Below are positions 5,451 through 64,000 of a stretch of DNA of 64,000 bases, piece by piece. The translations under genes and the position numbers were made by a program. The stretch is taken from assembly GCA_003345545.1 (NCBI GenBank), contig PRDH01000026.1, positions 1 through 64,000 of the forward strand, given 5' to 3'. Each line of letters opens with the position of its first letter. Within the stretch, counting starts at the first letter, position 1. The notes below the pieces were generated by a model. It searched no databases and was not told where the DNA came from. It saw only the letters and a program-made list of their open reading frames with translations. This DNA is from Candidatus Thorarchaeota archaeon (GTDB taxonomy: Archaea; Asgardarchaeota; Thorarchaeia; Thorarchaeales; Thorarchaeaceae).

Positions 5451-6119
5451 TTGTACCGCGTCGAGTTAAGAGCTTGTTACCAATCCTTAGTAATGAAAGC
5501 CCGCGACCTAGGGATGCGAGGATGCCGTATAGTGAAGGACCAAGATGATGGCAGCAGAATTCTGAAGGCAGTACTCATAGGGGACGGAGGGGTCGGCAAG
5601 ACAAGTATTCGCCGCAATTACCTTGGTGAGGAGTTCACAGAAGGTCACATAGCGACGATTGGCGTTGACTTGGCCACTAAACGAGTCCTTTTCAACCAAG
5701 ACATTGTGAAATTCATCATCTGGGACCTTGCTGGTCAGCCTACATTCGAGAAGGTCAGAGGCCATTACTATTCAGGCTGCAATGGTATTCTGTTGGTATA
5801 CTCAGTAGTGAGTCGATCATCGTTTGAGAATGCCTCCAAGTGGCTTGTCGAGGCTTTCAAGAACATGGGCCCATTGCCACCAACTGTCATTATCGGTAAC
5901 AAGACGGACCTGAGATATTCACTTGATAAGTCGAAGTATGTGACGCCAGAGGAGGGCCAGGAGTTCACTAAGTACTTCATCAACAAGCTTGGAGTACCTG
6001 CCATTTTCCGTGAGACCAGTGCCAAGACGGGAAATGGAATCCAAGATGCTTTCACAGAGCTGCTGCGTTTGATGGATGAGGCCGAGGGAGAGAAAAAGAG
6101 CGACTACTTCATCGGATAG
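5451..6119 (+). CDS. Ras/Rab-superfamily small GTPase
   Basis: G1 GDGGVGKTS, G3 WDLAGQ, G4 NKTD, G5 ETSAKTG; N-terminus uncertain (probable over-extension before RILKAVLIGDGG). Confidence 0.9.
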   Translation: MYRVELRACYQSLVMKARDLGMRGCRIVKDQDDGSRILKAVLIGDGGVGKTSIRRNYLGEEFTEGHIATIGVDLATKRVLFNQDIVKFIIWDLAGQPTFEKVRGHYYSGCNGILLVYSVVSRSSFENASKWLVEAFKNMGPLPPTVIIGNKTDLRYSLDKSKYVTPEEGQEFTKYFINKLGVPAIFRETSAKTGNGIQDAFTELLRLMDEAEGEKKSDYFIG

Positions 6120-11594: not shown

Positions 11595-12029
11595 CTAGAA
11601 CACCTTCTTTCCCCACTCTTTTGCTGCGGTACCTGCTCCGCTTGTCCATTCCCGTACGCCGCGACGCACTTTCTCTTCTTCCTCAGGAGTAGTTTCACCA
11701 GATATCATCTCATTGACCAAGATGAGAACACCGTCATCTATCTCGTCGCCGCGATCTGTGATGAATTTGATGACCTCTTGATTGTGAGCATTGGCTTCCT
11801 TGTCATCGACCGAGTGCAGTGTCACAATATAGTTGTTTCCAGCTTTCCCGATAAGCAGCTTGAGTTCGCCAAAAAGGAGTTCGTTCATCTCGTTTCCGGA
11901 GATCTTCTTGATGAACATCTGTAGTGCTGAAACAAATCCACCAATAAGCGCTGTATCGCCTTCCAAGTTCTCCCATCCTACGGAAGCGATTGTTTCACCC
12001 GCATCATTGATGACGAAGATTCCATACAT
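11595..12029 (-). CDS. Roadblock/longin-like small domain protein
   Basis: MYGIFVINDAGETIASVGW...LIGGFVSALQMFIKKI...LFGELKLLIGKAGNNYIVTLHSVDD: alternating strand/helix pattern of the longin/roadblock fold; adjacent to a small GTPase. Confidence 0.65.
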   Translation of the reverse strand: MYGIFVINDAGETIASVGWENLEGDTALIGGFVSALQMFIKKISGNEMNELLFGELKLLIGKAGNNYIVTLHSVDDKEANAHNQEVIKFITDRGDEIDDGVLILVNEMISGETTPEEEEKVRRGVREWTSGAGTAAKEWGKKVF

Positions 12030-12551: not shown

Positions 12552-13169
12552 TCAGTGTTGGGCTCCAGAGCTAGTCCTTGCGCTTTGCTCCGAGAGGAAT
12601 TTGCCTGCTGCCTCGAACATCTCGCGGACACCCTCCCCTGTCTTCGCAGATACTTCGAAGACTTGAGCATGGTATTGATCCGCGAATCTCTGAGCCTCCT
12701 CCTTTGTCACACCCATCCCTGGAAGACGTTCATCGATCTTGTTGCCTACAAGAAAGACATCGCAGTTGGGGACGCTGTTGTGAAGCTTCGCAATCCAATT
12801 GTCCAGCCTGTACATGGTGAACGACCTGCTGACCTCGTAGACTGCAATTCCTAGTTTTGACCCCCTGAAGTAGTCCATGACGACATCCTGGAATCTAGGT
12901 TGTCCGCCCAAGTCCCAAATCAGGAGGGTCAAGTCAGTACCTGCGACATTGACTCTCTTGGTGGCAAAGTTCACACCAATCGTCATTTTCATCTGCTGGT
13001 CGAATCGATCTTCAGTGTAACGCACAGCCAGACTTGTCTTTCCGACGCCCCCTTCTCCAATCAATGCCACCTTAAAGATTGGATTGCGTGTAATCAAGTC
13101 CTGCAGCTCCAATTTGAAAGGCGTGAACCAGCATATGAAGGTTGTTCGGAGGGAGGCAGTGTATTTCAC
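12552..13169 (-). CDS. Ras/Rab/Arf-superfamily small GTPase
   Basis: G1 GEGGVGKTS, G3 WDLGGQ, G4 NKID, G5 VSAKTG; GTG start overlapping the TGA of the upstream PhzF gene. Confidence 0.9.
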   Translation of the reverse strand: MKYTASLRTTFICWFTPFKLELQDLITRNPIFKVALIGEGGVGKTSLAVRYTEDRFDQQMKMTIGVNFATKRVNVAGTDLTLLIWDLGGQPRFQDVVMDYFRGSKLGIAVYEVSRSFTMYRLDNWIAKLHNSVPNCDVFLVGNKIDERLPGMGVTKEEAQRFADQYHAQVFEVSAKTGEGVREMFEAAGKFLSEQSARTSSGAQH

Positions 13170-60632: not shown

Positions 60633-60880
60633 TCACTATGCCCATTTGATTCTCCCTGCTTCTCAGAAAGCGTCGCTCTTGAGCGTGGTGTACGCAGTTT
60701 ACTAGTAGAAACATTCGCAATTAGCTTGGAAGGTCTAACCAGCATTATCTGAAATACCCGTGCAGGCATGCTAATCGCACGCAAATTAGTCCTATCGGGA
60801 AGAGTGGTAAGTTGGATTGCTCGCTGTTTCCTGTAGTATTACACTAGCAGTTTAGCTTACATAATCGAGGAGGCTAGCTC

Positions 60881-63800
60881 TTGAAACGCAACATCATACT
60901 GGTATTTCCTCTGATGTGCATCGTGCTAATCCTCATTCCATCGATATATGATCTCCCCCAGAATGCTCGCATGCTAGAAGGTCTAGATTACAGGCAAAAC
61001 GGGAACCTTCCCGTTGAGAATTATGCCGTGGTAGATAGGCAAACAGGCGTCTTTGATCCCGTTGTAGTTGAGCATATAGGGTCATCTGCCTGGGCGTCGA
61101 CATACACATCTGCGCGTACTGATGTATCACCTTCCCCAGGTTCTGCTGTGTTCATGCCTGCAGGTCCCACAGGCAATCAATACTCCTCGGATTGCGTTGC
61201 GGGTCACTTCCTAGTCGGGTCTGGAGGAAGTACTGATTTTGGATCATCTGAAGGGACACTCTCTCTTTGGTTGAAATGGGACCTCACAGCCCCCAATGGC
61301 CGCTTTTGGGGCCAACACGCCAACTTCGAAACAAGATGGACTACCAACAGACTGACTCTTGACTGGGGGAGTGATAACACACTCTTCGGGACGAAATCCA
61401 ACTGGTCAATAGATCATTGGTATTTCATCGCAATAACCTGGGATCAGACAATCAACTCTCTAGTAGCCTATTGGGGTGATGAGGAAACAGAGCCCATAGA
61501 GGATGCTTCGCTATCATGGACCGGTTCTGTTTCGGATCTACTTACTCAGAACAACATAATGAGTTCGCGAGGATCGGCAAGCTATCGTGTTGATGGACAT
61601 GTCGACGAGTTCAGATACTATTCAGTTGAAAGAAGTCTGGATGAATTGAGAATTGACTACAGGACAACTCTCACAGGCTCTGAACTTGGTCTCGTACACT
61701 ATTACCAGTTTGAAAACGACCTAGCGGATTCCGCCAGTGACACTGCTCTTGTTCAGGCAGGCAGTCACGTTTTCAGCCAAGATGTAGCCTCAGGGATTGG
61801 AGGATGGAGAGCAGAGCAAATCGAAATCGGCATTCGTGATTTGGAGCTGCTCAGTGTTCTGAACGGCTCCCTTGAGAGCGGAGTTCCAGGTACTGTGGTA
61901 GATTGGTCTGGTGACGCTAGTTGTTATCCATATGGTTGGCGAGCGCGCAGAGAGATTCTTGATACCCATGGCTACCAGCGAGTTTCATACAGCAATTCCG
62001 ACCCGAAATACTTGGTTCTTGAGAACGAGGGCTATGAAGATTCTGCTGCACCCAGCACACACCGCCACTATAATGGCACCAAGATCTACTGGTACCAAAT
62101 CGTGAATAATAGCAAGCACAATACTCAGTTTCAGTTCAGTATGAACTACCTCTATCAGAGAGGTCCAATCGGAGAGAATCATAGTGGCAATTTCAAGTTC
62201 AGTTTTCAGATCATGAATGGTTCATCTACTCTATGGAACTGGTCTGTAGACCCTACCAACATAACACAGCGCGGGATTTGGAATGAGATCGATTCCGTGG
62301 TAGTGAATTTGCCGGAGGTGCTTTCTACTTTTGAGGTAAGAGTTTGTTTTGCAGTCGACACGAACTCGAGCTATGTCGAGATCTCAGACTCAGATCCTGA
62401 TTTGGATGGCGACCCAGCAAATGGGAGGTATATCACGTTTCTAGTGGACGACATATCTCTCACAGTACTAGAAAATCTCAGTCCACAAAATGTTAATCTG
62501 CATGTCAATGTTGAACTAGTCGGCGACAATCCGATACTCGGCGACTCGGAATCTGGAACGATTTCGTTGAATCATACTTACTGGGAAAAAGCTGCAATCC
62601 CTTTCACATTCACATCAAATGCGAGTGTGTCATTTGAATACTCAGTTTGTGTTAGTCGGATGACGAAGTTCTACAACTCATCATTCTCGACGAACCTTAG
62701 TGACTTGGGCGTCGCATATGAGATTGACCTCAACCAAGATGCAGACCTATTCATCTTCACTTATATTCAATCCTACTCGGAGGCAAGAGACCTAGGCCTT
62801 ATCGTACACTATCGCGATGATTGGCGCAGCCCAACTGTGGAAGACCCCTTTGGCAACGACCTCACTGCTCAGGCATTAGTCGAATCTGATCGCTTGGAGA
62901 TTCCATCTGGTCTGGCCAGCGTCGTTGGTTGGTGGAAAATCAATCTGAAAGCACCAAACTATCTAGCGTCGATGTCGACTCAGGTACTTAGAAGCTCTGA
63001 ATCGACTTGGAAGACTGAAGCAGTTTTTCGTAGTGGCGATCAAATTCGCTGCAATGCCCTCATTGGTACTGAGTCTGAATTGACTTCTCCCATATTCGAT
63101 GTCAAGGCTGACTGGTATCTGCCAACAGGAGCTCTGTGGTCCAGCGAGACTATCGCCGAATCAAATAGCTCCTCTATTGTGAGTAATGGAACCACATTGG
63201 GACCTTACAATGCGACAATTGGAGAATGGATGGTTTCCGTATCTTGGTTCAATGGAACGGAGGTGGCATTTGGCTCGATCACATTTGAGGTACATCATAG
63301 ACTGACAATATTCGCTCAGACTCCGAGCATCGATGTTGCGCCTGGAGAACAATTCACAGCAACCATCTCGCTCTATGATCAAGACAATGGCAATCCTATT
63401 CTCGGTGATGCTCGCGTAGTTGGAAATTGGTCTTCCCTTGATATTCAATTCAATCCTAATCTTGCAAGAAGTTGGTGGGAGGCCGATTTCAACTCTTCAG
63501 TAGTGGGAACAGGTAGTTTTGTTCTCCTAGTTTCTGTCAGCATGCCCTATTATGTTGCGAACAACTGCACAATCAACGTGAACATCCCCGTTGCCGAGTC
63601 GCTATTCATGATTACCGTTAGAGCCACTCTTGTTGGAGCTCTAGCCGTGTTCGCTCTGTTCCTTGTTACTGCAATCAGTCGCCGTATCTATGTGCAAACA
63701 ATGACACGCAGGAACCTGGAACTCCTGGCCCTAAGAGGACGTTTCGAGGATGCAAGAAATCTAATCGGTATTCTAGTCATCCACCGCTCGATTGGTCTTC

Positions 63801-64000
63801 CCATTTACTCCCGAATCCTCAAGGGCGGCTTTCAAGAGTCCCTTCTAAGTTCGTTCATAACTGCGCTGTCACAATTCAGAGCGGAGTTCTCGTGGGATGA
63901 ACCAAGATGGACAGCGATACCCATTACAGAAGTAATTACCGCTGTTCAGACCGAGGTCCTCATCTGTGCCATGATAAGCGTCGAACCTGCTACGCCAAGG
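60881..64000 (+). CDS. Large membrane protein, 3' truncated by window edge: N-terminal signal/anchor, LamG-like domain, long ectodomain, TM helix, longin/roadblock-like cytoplasmic domain
   Basis: Single open frame of 1040 codons, not in the supplied track; TTG start with GAGGAGG 7 nt upstream; GTLSLWLKWDL...WYFIAITWDQ...VDGHVDEFRYYSVERSLDELRIDY; TM ITVRATLVGALAVFALFLVTAI; then ARNLIGILVIHRSIGLPIYSRILKGGFQESLLSSFITALSQFRAEF. Confidence 0.85.
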   Translation, partial: MKRNIILVFPLMCIVLILIPSIYDLPQNARMLEGLDYRQNGNLPVENYAVVDRQTGVFDPVVVEHIGSSAWASTYTSARTDVSPSPGSAVFMPAGPTGNQYSSDCVAGHFLVGSGGSTDFGSSEGTLSLWLKWDLTAPNGRFWGQHANFETRWTTNRLTLDWGSDNTLFGTKSNWSIDHWYFIAITWDQTINSLVAYWGDEETEPIEDASLSWTGSVSDLLTQNNIMSSRGSASYRVDGHVDEFRYYSVERSLDELRIDYRTTLTGSELGLVHYYQFENDLADSASDTALVQAGSHVFSQDVASGIGGWRAEQIEIGIRDLELLSVLNGSLESGVPGTVVDWSGDASCYPYGWRARREILDTHGYQRVSYSNSDPKYLVLENEGYEDSAAPSTHRHYNGTKIYWYQIVNNSKHNTQFQFSMNYLYQRGPIGENHSGNFKFSFQIMNGSSTLWNWSVDPTNITQRGIWNEIDSVVVNLPEVLSTFEVRVCFAVDTNSSYVEISDSDPDLDGDPANGRYITFLVDDISLTVLENLSPQNVNLHVNVELVGDNPILGDSESGTISLNHTYWEKAAIPFTFTSNASVSFEYSVCVSRMTKFYNSSFSTNLSDLGVAYEIDLNQDADLFIFTYIQSYSEARDLGLIVHYRDDWRSPTVEDPFGNDLTAQALVESDRLEIPSGLASVVGWWKINLKAPNYLASMSTQVLRSSESTWKTEAVFRSGDQIRCNALIGTESELTSPIFDVKADWYLPTGALWSSETIAESNSSSIVSNGTTLGPYNATIGEWMVSVSWFNGTEVAFGSITFEVHHRLTIFAQTPSIDVAPGEQFTATISLYDQDNGNPILGDARVVGNWSSLDIQFNPNLARSWWEADFNSSVVGTGSFVLLVSVSMPYYVANNCTINVNIPVAESLFMITVRATLVGALAVFALFLVTAISRRIYVQTMTRRNLELLALRGRFEDARNLIGILVIHRSIGLPIYSRILKGGFQESLLSSFITALSQFRAEFSWDEPRWTAIPITEVITAVQTEVLICAMISVEPATPR

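Follow-up and report, generated by a model that had tools for sequence, protein, structure and literature searches.

A predicted single-pass surface protein with a cytosolic longin-type tail in a Thorarchaeon, and its relatives across Asgard archaea

An open reading frame cut by the window edge

The window analysed here comprises the first 64,000 nucleotides of a Thorarchaeal contig (PRDH01000026.1). Close to its right end, an open reading frame (ORF) on the + strand starts with TTG at position 60881 and stays open through position 64000 (1,040 codons), and a Shine-Dalgarno-like GAGGAGG (60867–60873, + strand) is found 7 nt 5′ of the start codon. All of these features had been claimed in the original prediction, and were confirmed by reading the sequence directly. 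As the contig continues past the window (bases 1–64000) to 150,943 bases, the stop codon could be recovered by extending the frame rightwards: the ORF closes at contig position 64381, giving a product of 1,166 amino acids (aa). The ORF is missing from the list of closed ORFs because the window edge cuts the frame, not because of a frameshift. Orthologs encoded by further genomes of the genus, which are 45–55% identical to the product, keep the frame over nearly full length, and the possibility of a frameshift, raised along with the original prediction, was therefore rejected. The receptor-like ORF is real. In one genome (G036), the ortholog is interrupted by scaffold gaps and the gene appeared to be split, with the ectodomain and the tail at distant places; this split is an artefact, because the contig was scaffolded with runs of 100 N.

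The gene order conserved in the genus is a PLP enzyme, the 60881 gene, an LRR protein (373 aa), a 198-aa protein, a CoA ligase on the opposite strand, and large Ig/NHL surface proteins. The last are encoded by two overlapping giant genes (L002:8045-16744 and L002:16741-, both on the + strand; contig position 68045 onward), the first for a protein of 2,899 aa and the next for one of at least 1,086 aa. Judged by eye, the 2,899-aa protein carries NHL repeats, Ig-like repeats, a transmembrane (TM) segment and a UBA-like-looking, non-longin cytosolic tail.

Predicted ectodomain, membrane topology and tail

The product begins with a signal-peptide-like hydrophobic segment (residues 5–23; 60893–60949, + strand; hydropathy 2.76). 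Residues 94–305 (61160–61795, + strand) resemble the Laminin_G_3/ConA-like lectin domain (PF13385), on the basis of the family alignment and of Pfam matches in seven of the nine aligned members (best E value, 1.9e-14); the window protein itself scored 27.2 bits (E = 5e-6), falling 0.4 bits short of the cut-off of 27.6. Among the relatives examined, the LamG domain was confined to orthologs of the 60881 gene and a single distant Asgard protein (L074), and most paralogs are without it. The region that follows (residues 306–905; 61796–63595, + strand) is a conserved core common to the Thorarchaeal paralogs. Its AlphaFold2 model is all-beta with a pLDDT of 90.9, and the predicted layout is a CBM4-like jelly roll followed by Ig/macroglobulin-like beta sandwiches. 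The Foldseek matches of the core included the CBM4-2 xyloglucan-binding module (4bj0, TMt 0.68), alpha-2-macroglobulins and Ig receptors. When the full-length 60881 protein was used as a single sequence, the Pfam search gave no match and the PDB search gave a chance match only. Several other Pfam matches in the ectodomain and the tail (MG2, Shr-like, Cor1 and others) were weak and were not used for naming.

A single TM helix was detected by hydropathy (2.33) at residues 915–933 (63623–63679, + strand), and relatives have it at the same position. The ectodomain of the 60881 protein carries 21 N-glycosylation-type sequons against 10.8 expected from shuffling (p = 0.0004), and the tail carries none. 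The same asymmetry was seen across the family, with 2.59 sequons per 100 aa in the ectodomain and 0.10 in the tail, i.e., 26 times denser outside, as expected if the N-terminal part is extracellular and the tail cytosolic. Thus, the LamG/ConA-like pattern, the abundant sequons and the single TM helix of the original prediction were all borne out, and the protein has the predicted layout of a type I membrane protein: a signal peptide, a sequon-rich ectodomain, a single TM helix and a cytosolic tail.

The tail is 228 aa long (residues 939–1166), of which residues 939–1040 (63695–64000, + strand) are encoded in the window. Its AlphaFold2 model, built on a 43-sequence alignment (pLDDT 88.4, pTM 0.83), shows the element order H-E-E-H-E-E-E-H, with an extra helix close after the TM helix, then the strand-strand-helix-strand-strand-strand-helix core of longins (E23–30, E36–41, H48–64, E74–76, E81–85, E89–95 and H101–118), and a mostly helical C-terminal part. 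Foldseek comparison with the PDB matched the tail to zeta-COP (COPI leaf chain; E = 2.3e-4), AP2 sigma (E = 9.2e-4) and Sec22b (E = 1.4e-3), the last with a TMt of up to 0.64, and the top 50 also contained VAMP7, Mon1-Ccz1, Fuzzy-Inturned, TRAPP, Ragulator and roadblocks. With longin and roadblock domains as its best solved-structure matches, the modelled tail agrees with the intracellular longin/roadblock-like domain proposed originally, and it is a longin fold (about residues 961–1057, reaching contig position 64051) as far as the prediction goes. None of the tail members scored over the cut-off of the Pfam longin or roadblock models.

The original prediction did not include a winged-helix-like segment, which lies outside the window at about residues 1101–1153 (contig positions 64181–64339). 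With a profile of 30 diverse Asgard members, the MCM C-terminal winged helix (2m45) matched tail-profile positions 158–225 (E = 9e-4), and the end of the tail is therefore probably a winged helix.

Known longin proteins resemble the 60881 protein in different respects. Longin SNAREs (Sec22b and VAMP7) are likewise membrane-anchored with a cytosolic longin, and match the tail in fold (TMt 0.51–0.64). Nevertheless, their order is an N-terminal longin, a SNARE motif and a TM segment, whereas that of the 60881 protein is ectodomain, TM and longin, and its tail model has the winged-helix-like segment after the longin instead of a long SNARE helix. As the TM helix at 915–933 precedes the longin and the long SNARE helix is missing, we rejected the identification of the protein as a longin SNARE. 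The Mon1-Ccz1 and Fuzzy-Inturned complexes, whose longin type is represented by PF19036 (FUZ/MON1/HPS1), match the tail in fold, but are made of soluble or peripheral proteins, and the 60881 tail itself stays under the Pfam cut-off. The predicted order of a longin and then a probable winged helix would fit that of NPRL2/NPRL3 in GATOR1, which are without a TM segment or an ectodomain; soluble paralogs in the Thorarchaeal genome, unlike the tail, gave weak HTH_NPRL3 matches (E = 6e-4 and 0.016), both under the cut-off.

Soluble relatives, GTPase fusions and spread among Asgard archaea

A likeness between the tail and a soluble 144-aa protein encoded elsewhere in the window (11595–12029, − strand) had been noticed by eye. 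This likeness was not detected by hhalign when the tail was compared with the lone sequence of the soluble protein, but the comparison between the tail family profile and the soluble-longin family profile gave a probability of 98.7% and an E value of 2.7e-16, and the tail profile also matched the 144-aa protein directly (E = 0.0024). The soluble protein is thus homologous to the tail longin. Two members of its family (L175 and L177), from two other Asgard genomes, have an Arf-like GTPase after the longin, and L177 passes the cut-off for PF19036 (27.7 bits against 26.1); the sequence homology of the tail to accepted longins is indirect, through this soluble family with its one PF19036-passing member. 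The genome with the 60881 gene also encodes a fusion: in C17, a protein of 649 aa, an Arf-like GTPase is followed by a longin that the tail profile detects at E = 1.1e-10. These fusions are circumstantial evidence that this type of longin works with small GTPases, and lend partial support to the originally proposed link between the 60881 protein and small GTPases.

The genome has 24 Ras-family matches over the Pfam cut-off. Two Ras-family GTPases are encoded in the window, one at 5451–6119 (+ strand) and the other at 12552–13169 (− strand; PF00071, E = 2.8e-39), the latter about 520 bases from the soluble longin gene. The product of the latter has no C-terminal cysteine and ends with SSGAQH, and a C-terminal prenylation-type cysteine motif is absent from both.

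Other soluble relatives of the tail carry TrmB-like winged helices, and in two relatives (L144 and L145) the longin is combined with PCI/winged-helix domains. The latter (L145:1865-4924, + strand) has an FG-GAP/BBS7-like beta-propeller, a winged-helix/PCI region, the same longin and a zinc ribbon, and recalls parts of the BBSome and UFL1. Separately, ORFs of ~205–222 aa, such as L152:780-1391 (− strand), encode a soluble longin plus a winged-helix-like segment, give near-full-length profile matches in many Asgard genomes, and appear to occur about once per genome.

Besides about ten soluble longin proteins, the Thorarchaeal genome encodes three proteins with a longin behind a TM helix (C26, C21 and C32). 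The spread of this TM-longin design was not part of the original prediction, which had suggested only that Asgard proteomes be searched for it. The Thorarchaeal tail profile matched 187 of the 196 Asgard genomes at E ≤ 1e-3, a count that takes in soluble relatives as well. With a broader profile, matches at E ≤ 1e-10 were obtained in 53 of 59 genomes, among them every one of the 21 best-quality genomes. When a hydrophobic segment before the domain was scored at the 29 best loci of the broader profile, one per genome, a TM helix was found directly upstream in 26, in six family-level lineages; this proportion is not unbiased, because the loci are the top matches of a profile whose source sequences were mostly TM forms. 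A scan of genome contigs with a single protein gave no match, and a scan with the tail alignment over 84,980 species gave 45 loci, every one of them from a record with Thorarchaeota or Lokiarchaeota in its title, although a single peptide pattern was used and absence from other groups is thus not proven. We conclude that surface proteins predicted from sequence to have one TM helix and a longin–winged-helix module in the cytosol make up a pan-Asgard class.

Possible roles at the plasma membrane

Asgard archaea are relatives of our own cellular ancestors, and longin-type domains handle small GTPase switches in our cells. The reading we prefer, which we regard as evenly balanced, is that the 60881 protein is a type I surface protein of the pan-Asgard class, whose longin module keeps an Arf/Ras-like GTPase at the plasma membrane or controls it there. 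Outside the cell, carbohydrate-binding-like (LamG and CBM4-like) and Ig-like domains would be displayed on the surface; inside, the longin fold and the following winged-helix-like segment would be presented to the cytosol. Either by itself or together with a soluble longin/roadblock partner, the longin module would then form a platform for the GTPase, giving it a fixed membrane address beside a surface-recognition domain. The tail would bind the GTPase as a GEF, a GAP or a plain anchor, and a ligand outside could trigger a signal inside. The longins of SNAREs and adaptor subunits do other jobs, which counts against this reading.

Alternatively, the protein may be an adhesin or envelope stalk, with a structural or adhesive Ig/LamG ectodomain and a longin tail that dimerises or anchors to the cytoskeleton, no GTPase being involved. 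Proteins that share the ectodomain core range from about 1,100 to 2,150 aa, the additional residues being placed between the core and the TM helix, and the giant Ig/NHL surface proteins of the same locus have a different, non-longin tail. Lokiarchaeal cells have been described with numerous surface proteins and no ordered S-layer (PMC9834061), which also suits a structural role. On the other hand, the tail is conserved across lineages with differing ectodomains, and its family is also fused to GTPases, and we consider the adhesin possible, though rather doubtful. A cargo or sorting receptor, whose longin–winged-helix tail recruits ESCRT or adaptin-like machinery for vesicles or turnover, appears unlikely: the adaptor and COPI subunits among the Foldseek matches of the tail and the joining of longin with PCI/winged-helix domains in L144 and L145 speak for it, as do Asgard ESCRT-related proteins combining longin, Ig-like and HTH/PCI domains (PMC10936438), but neither ESCRT nor adaptin genes were seen among the annotated neighbours of family members. 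Winged helices beside longins, in NPRL2/3 of GATOR1 as in ESCRT-II, mediate protein contacts, and this, together with the lack of a known cleavage site or regulon, makes it very improbable that the protein regulates transcription from the membrane by contacting DNA with its winged helix, despite the MCM match and the TrmB-like helices of soluble relatives.

For the GTPase platform, previous work provides a context. Asgard longins and longin-GTPase fusion proteins were already known (PMC10933270; PMC4917890); they share the fold, the Asgard-wide distribution and the tie to GTPases through fusion with the tail family, and the tail is homologous to the longin-GTPase fusions described above. The passages on longins in these two papers mention no membrane-spanning form, whereas the longin here forms the cytosolic end of a large surface protein with a single TM helix. 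The signature families listed in PMC9834061 include an 'NPRL2-like longin domain'. Among open-access papers, preprints excluded, we found none that had already described longin-tailed surface proteins. According to a 2016 review, Loki GTPases are without a CAAX box and enzymes for lipid modification were not detectable, so that either the mode of membrane association is unknown or these GTPases act off membranes (PMC4917890). TM proteins with a cytosolic longin from a GTPase-fused family are a concrete candidate for this missing link between GTPases and the membrane, and the design could be how Asgard cells tie the two together. In addition, the complex proteins observed on the surface of Lokiarchaeal cells (PMC9834061) may be members of the class. 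It is tempting, if speculative, to extend the idea: without detected GTPase lipidation, Asgard archaea might attach their Arf/Ras-like GTPases to the plasma membrane by means of pan-phylum single-pass surface proteins with longin–winged-helix tails, and such outside-to-inside coupling might predate the prenylated GTPases and longin GEF/GAP complexes of eukaryotes. We hold this broader scenario to be possible, albeit tentative.

Gene neighbourhood was rejected as evidence for a GTPase partner, as adjacencies are few and paralogs lie beside unrelated genes. No GTPase gene adjoins the 60881 gene, and most neighbours of the paralogs look, by eye, housekeeping or unrelated (DNA ligase-, PTPS- and FolE2/MptA-like genes). 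A Rab-like GTPase adjoins a TM-longin gene only at L074 and in two sibling genomes, which we judged to be about the chance level for a GTPase-rich genome. In the sibling genomes, the Rab-like GTPase (L045:14430-15572 and L048:13773-15002, both + strand) has a long C-terminal extension and is divergent from the receptor gene. At the locus itself, the next two genes lie on the same strand as the 60881 gene after intergenic gaps of 74 and 83 bases, and the LRR and 198-aa proteins may therefore be co-transcribed with it and are candidate partners. The LRR protein (L002:4456-5577, + strand), encoded directly 3′ of the receptor gene, has no evident signal peptide, keeps its position in six other genomes, and is a possible cytosolic partner. 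The 198-aa protein (L002:5661-6257, + strand), without a Pfam match, has a CPxC motif and hydrophobic segments, and its position is likewise conserved.
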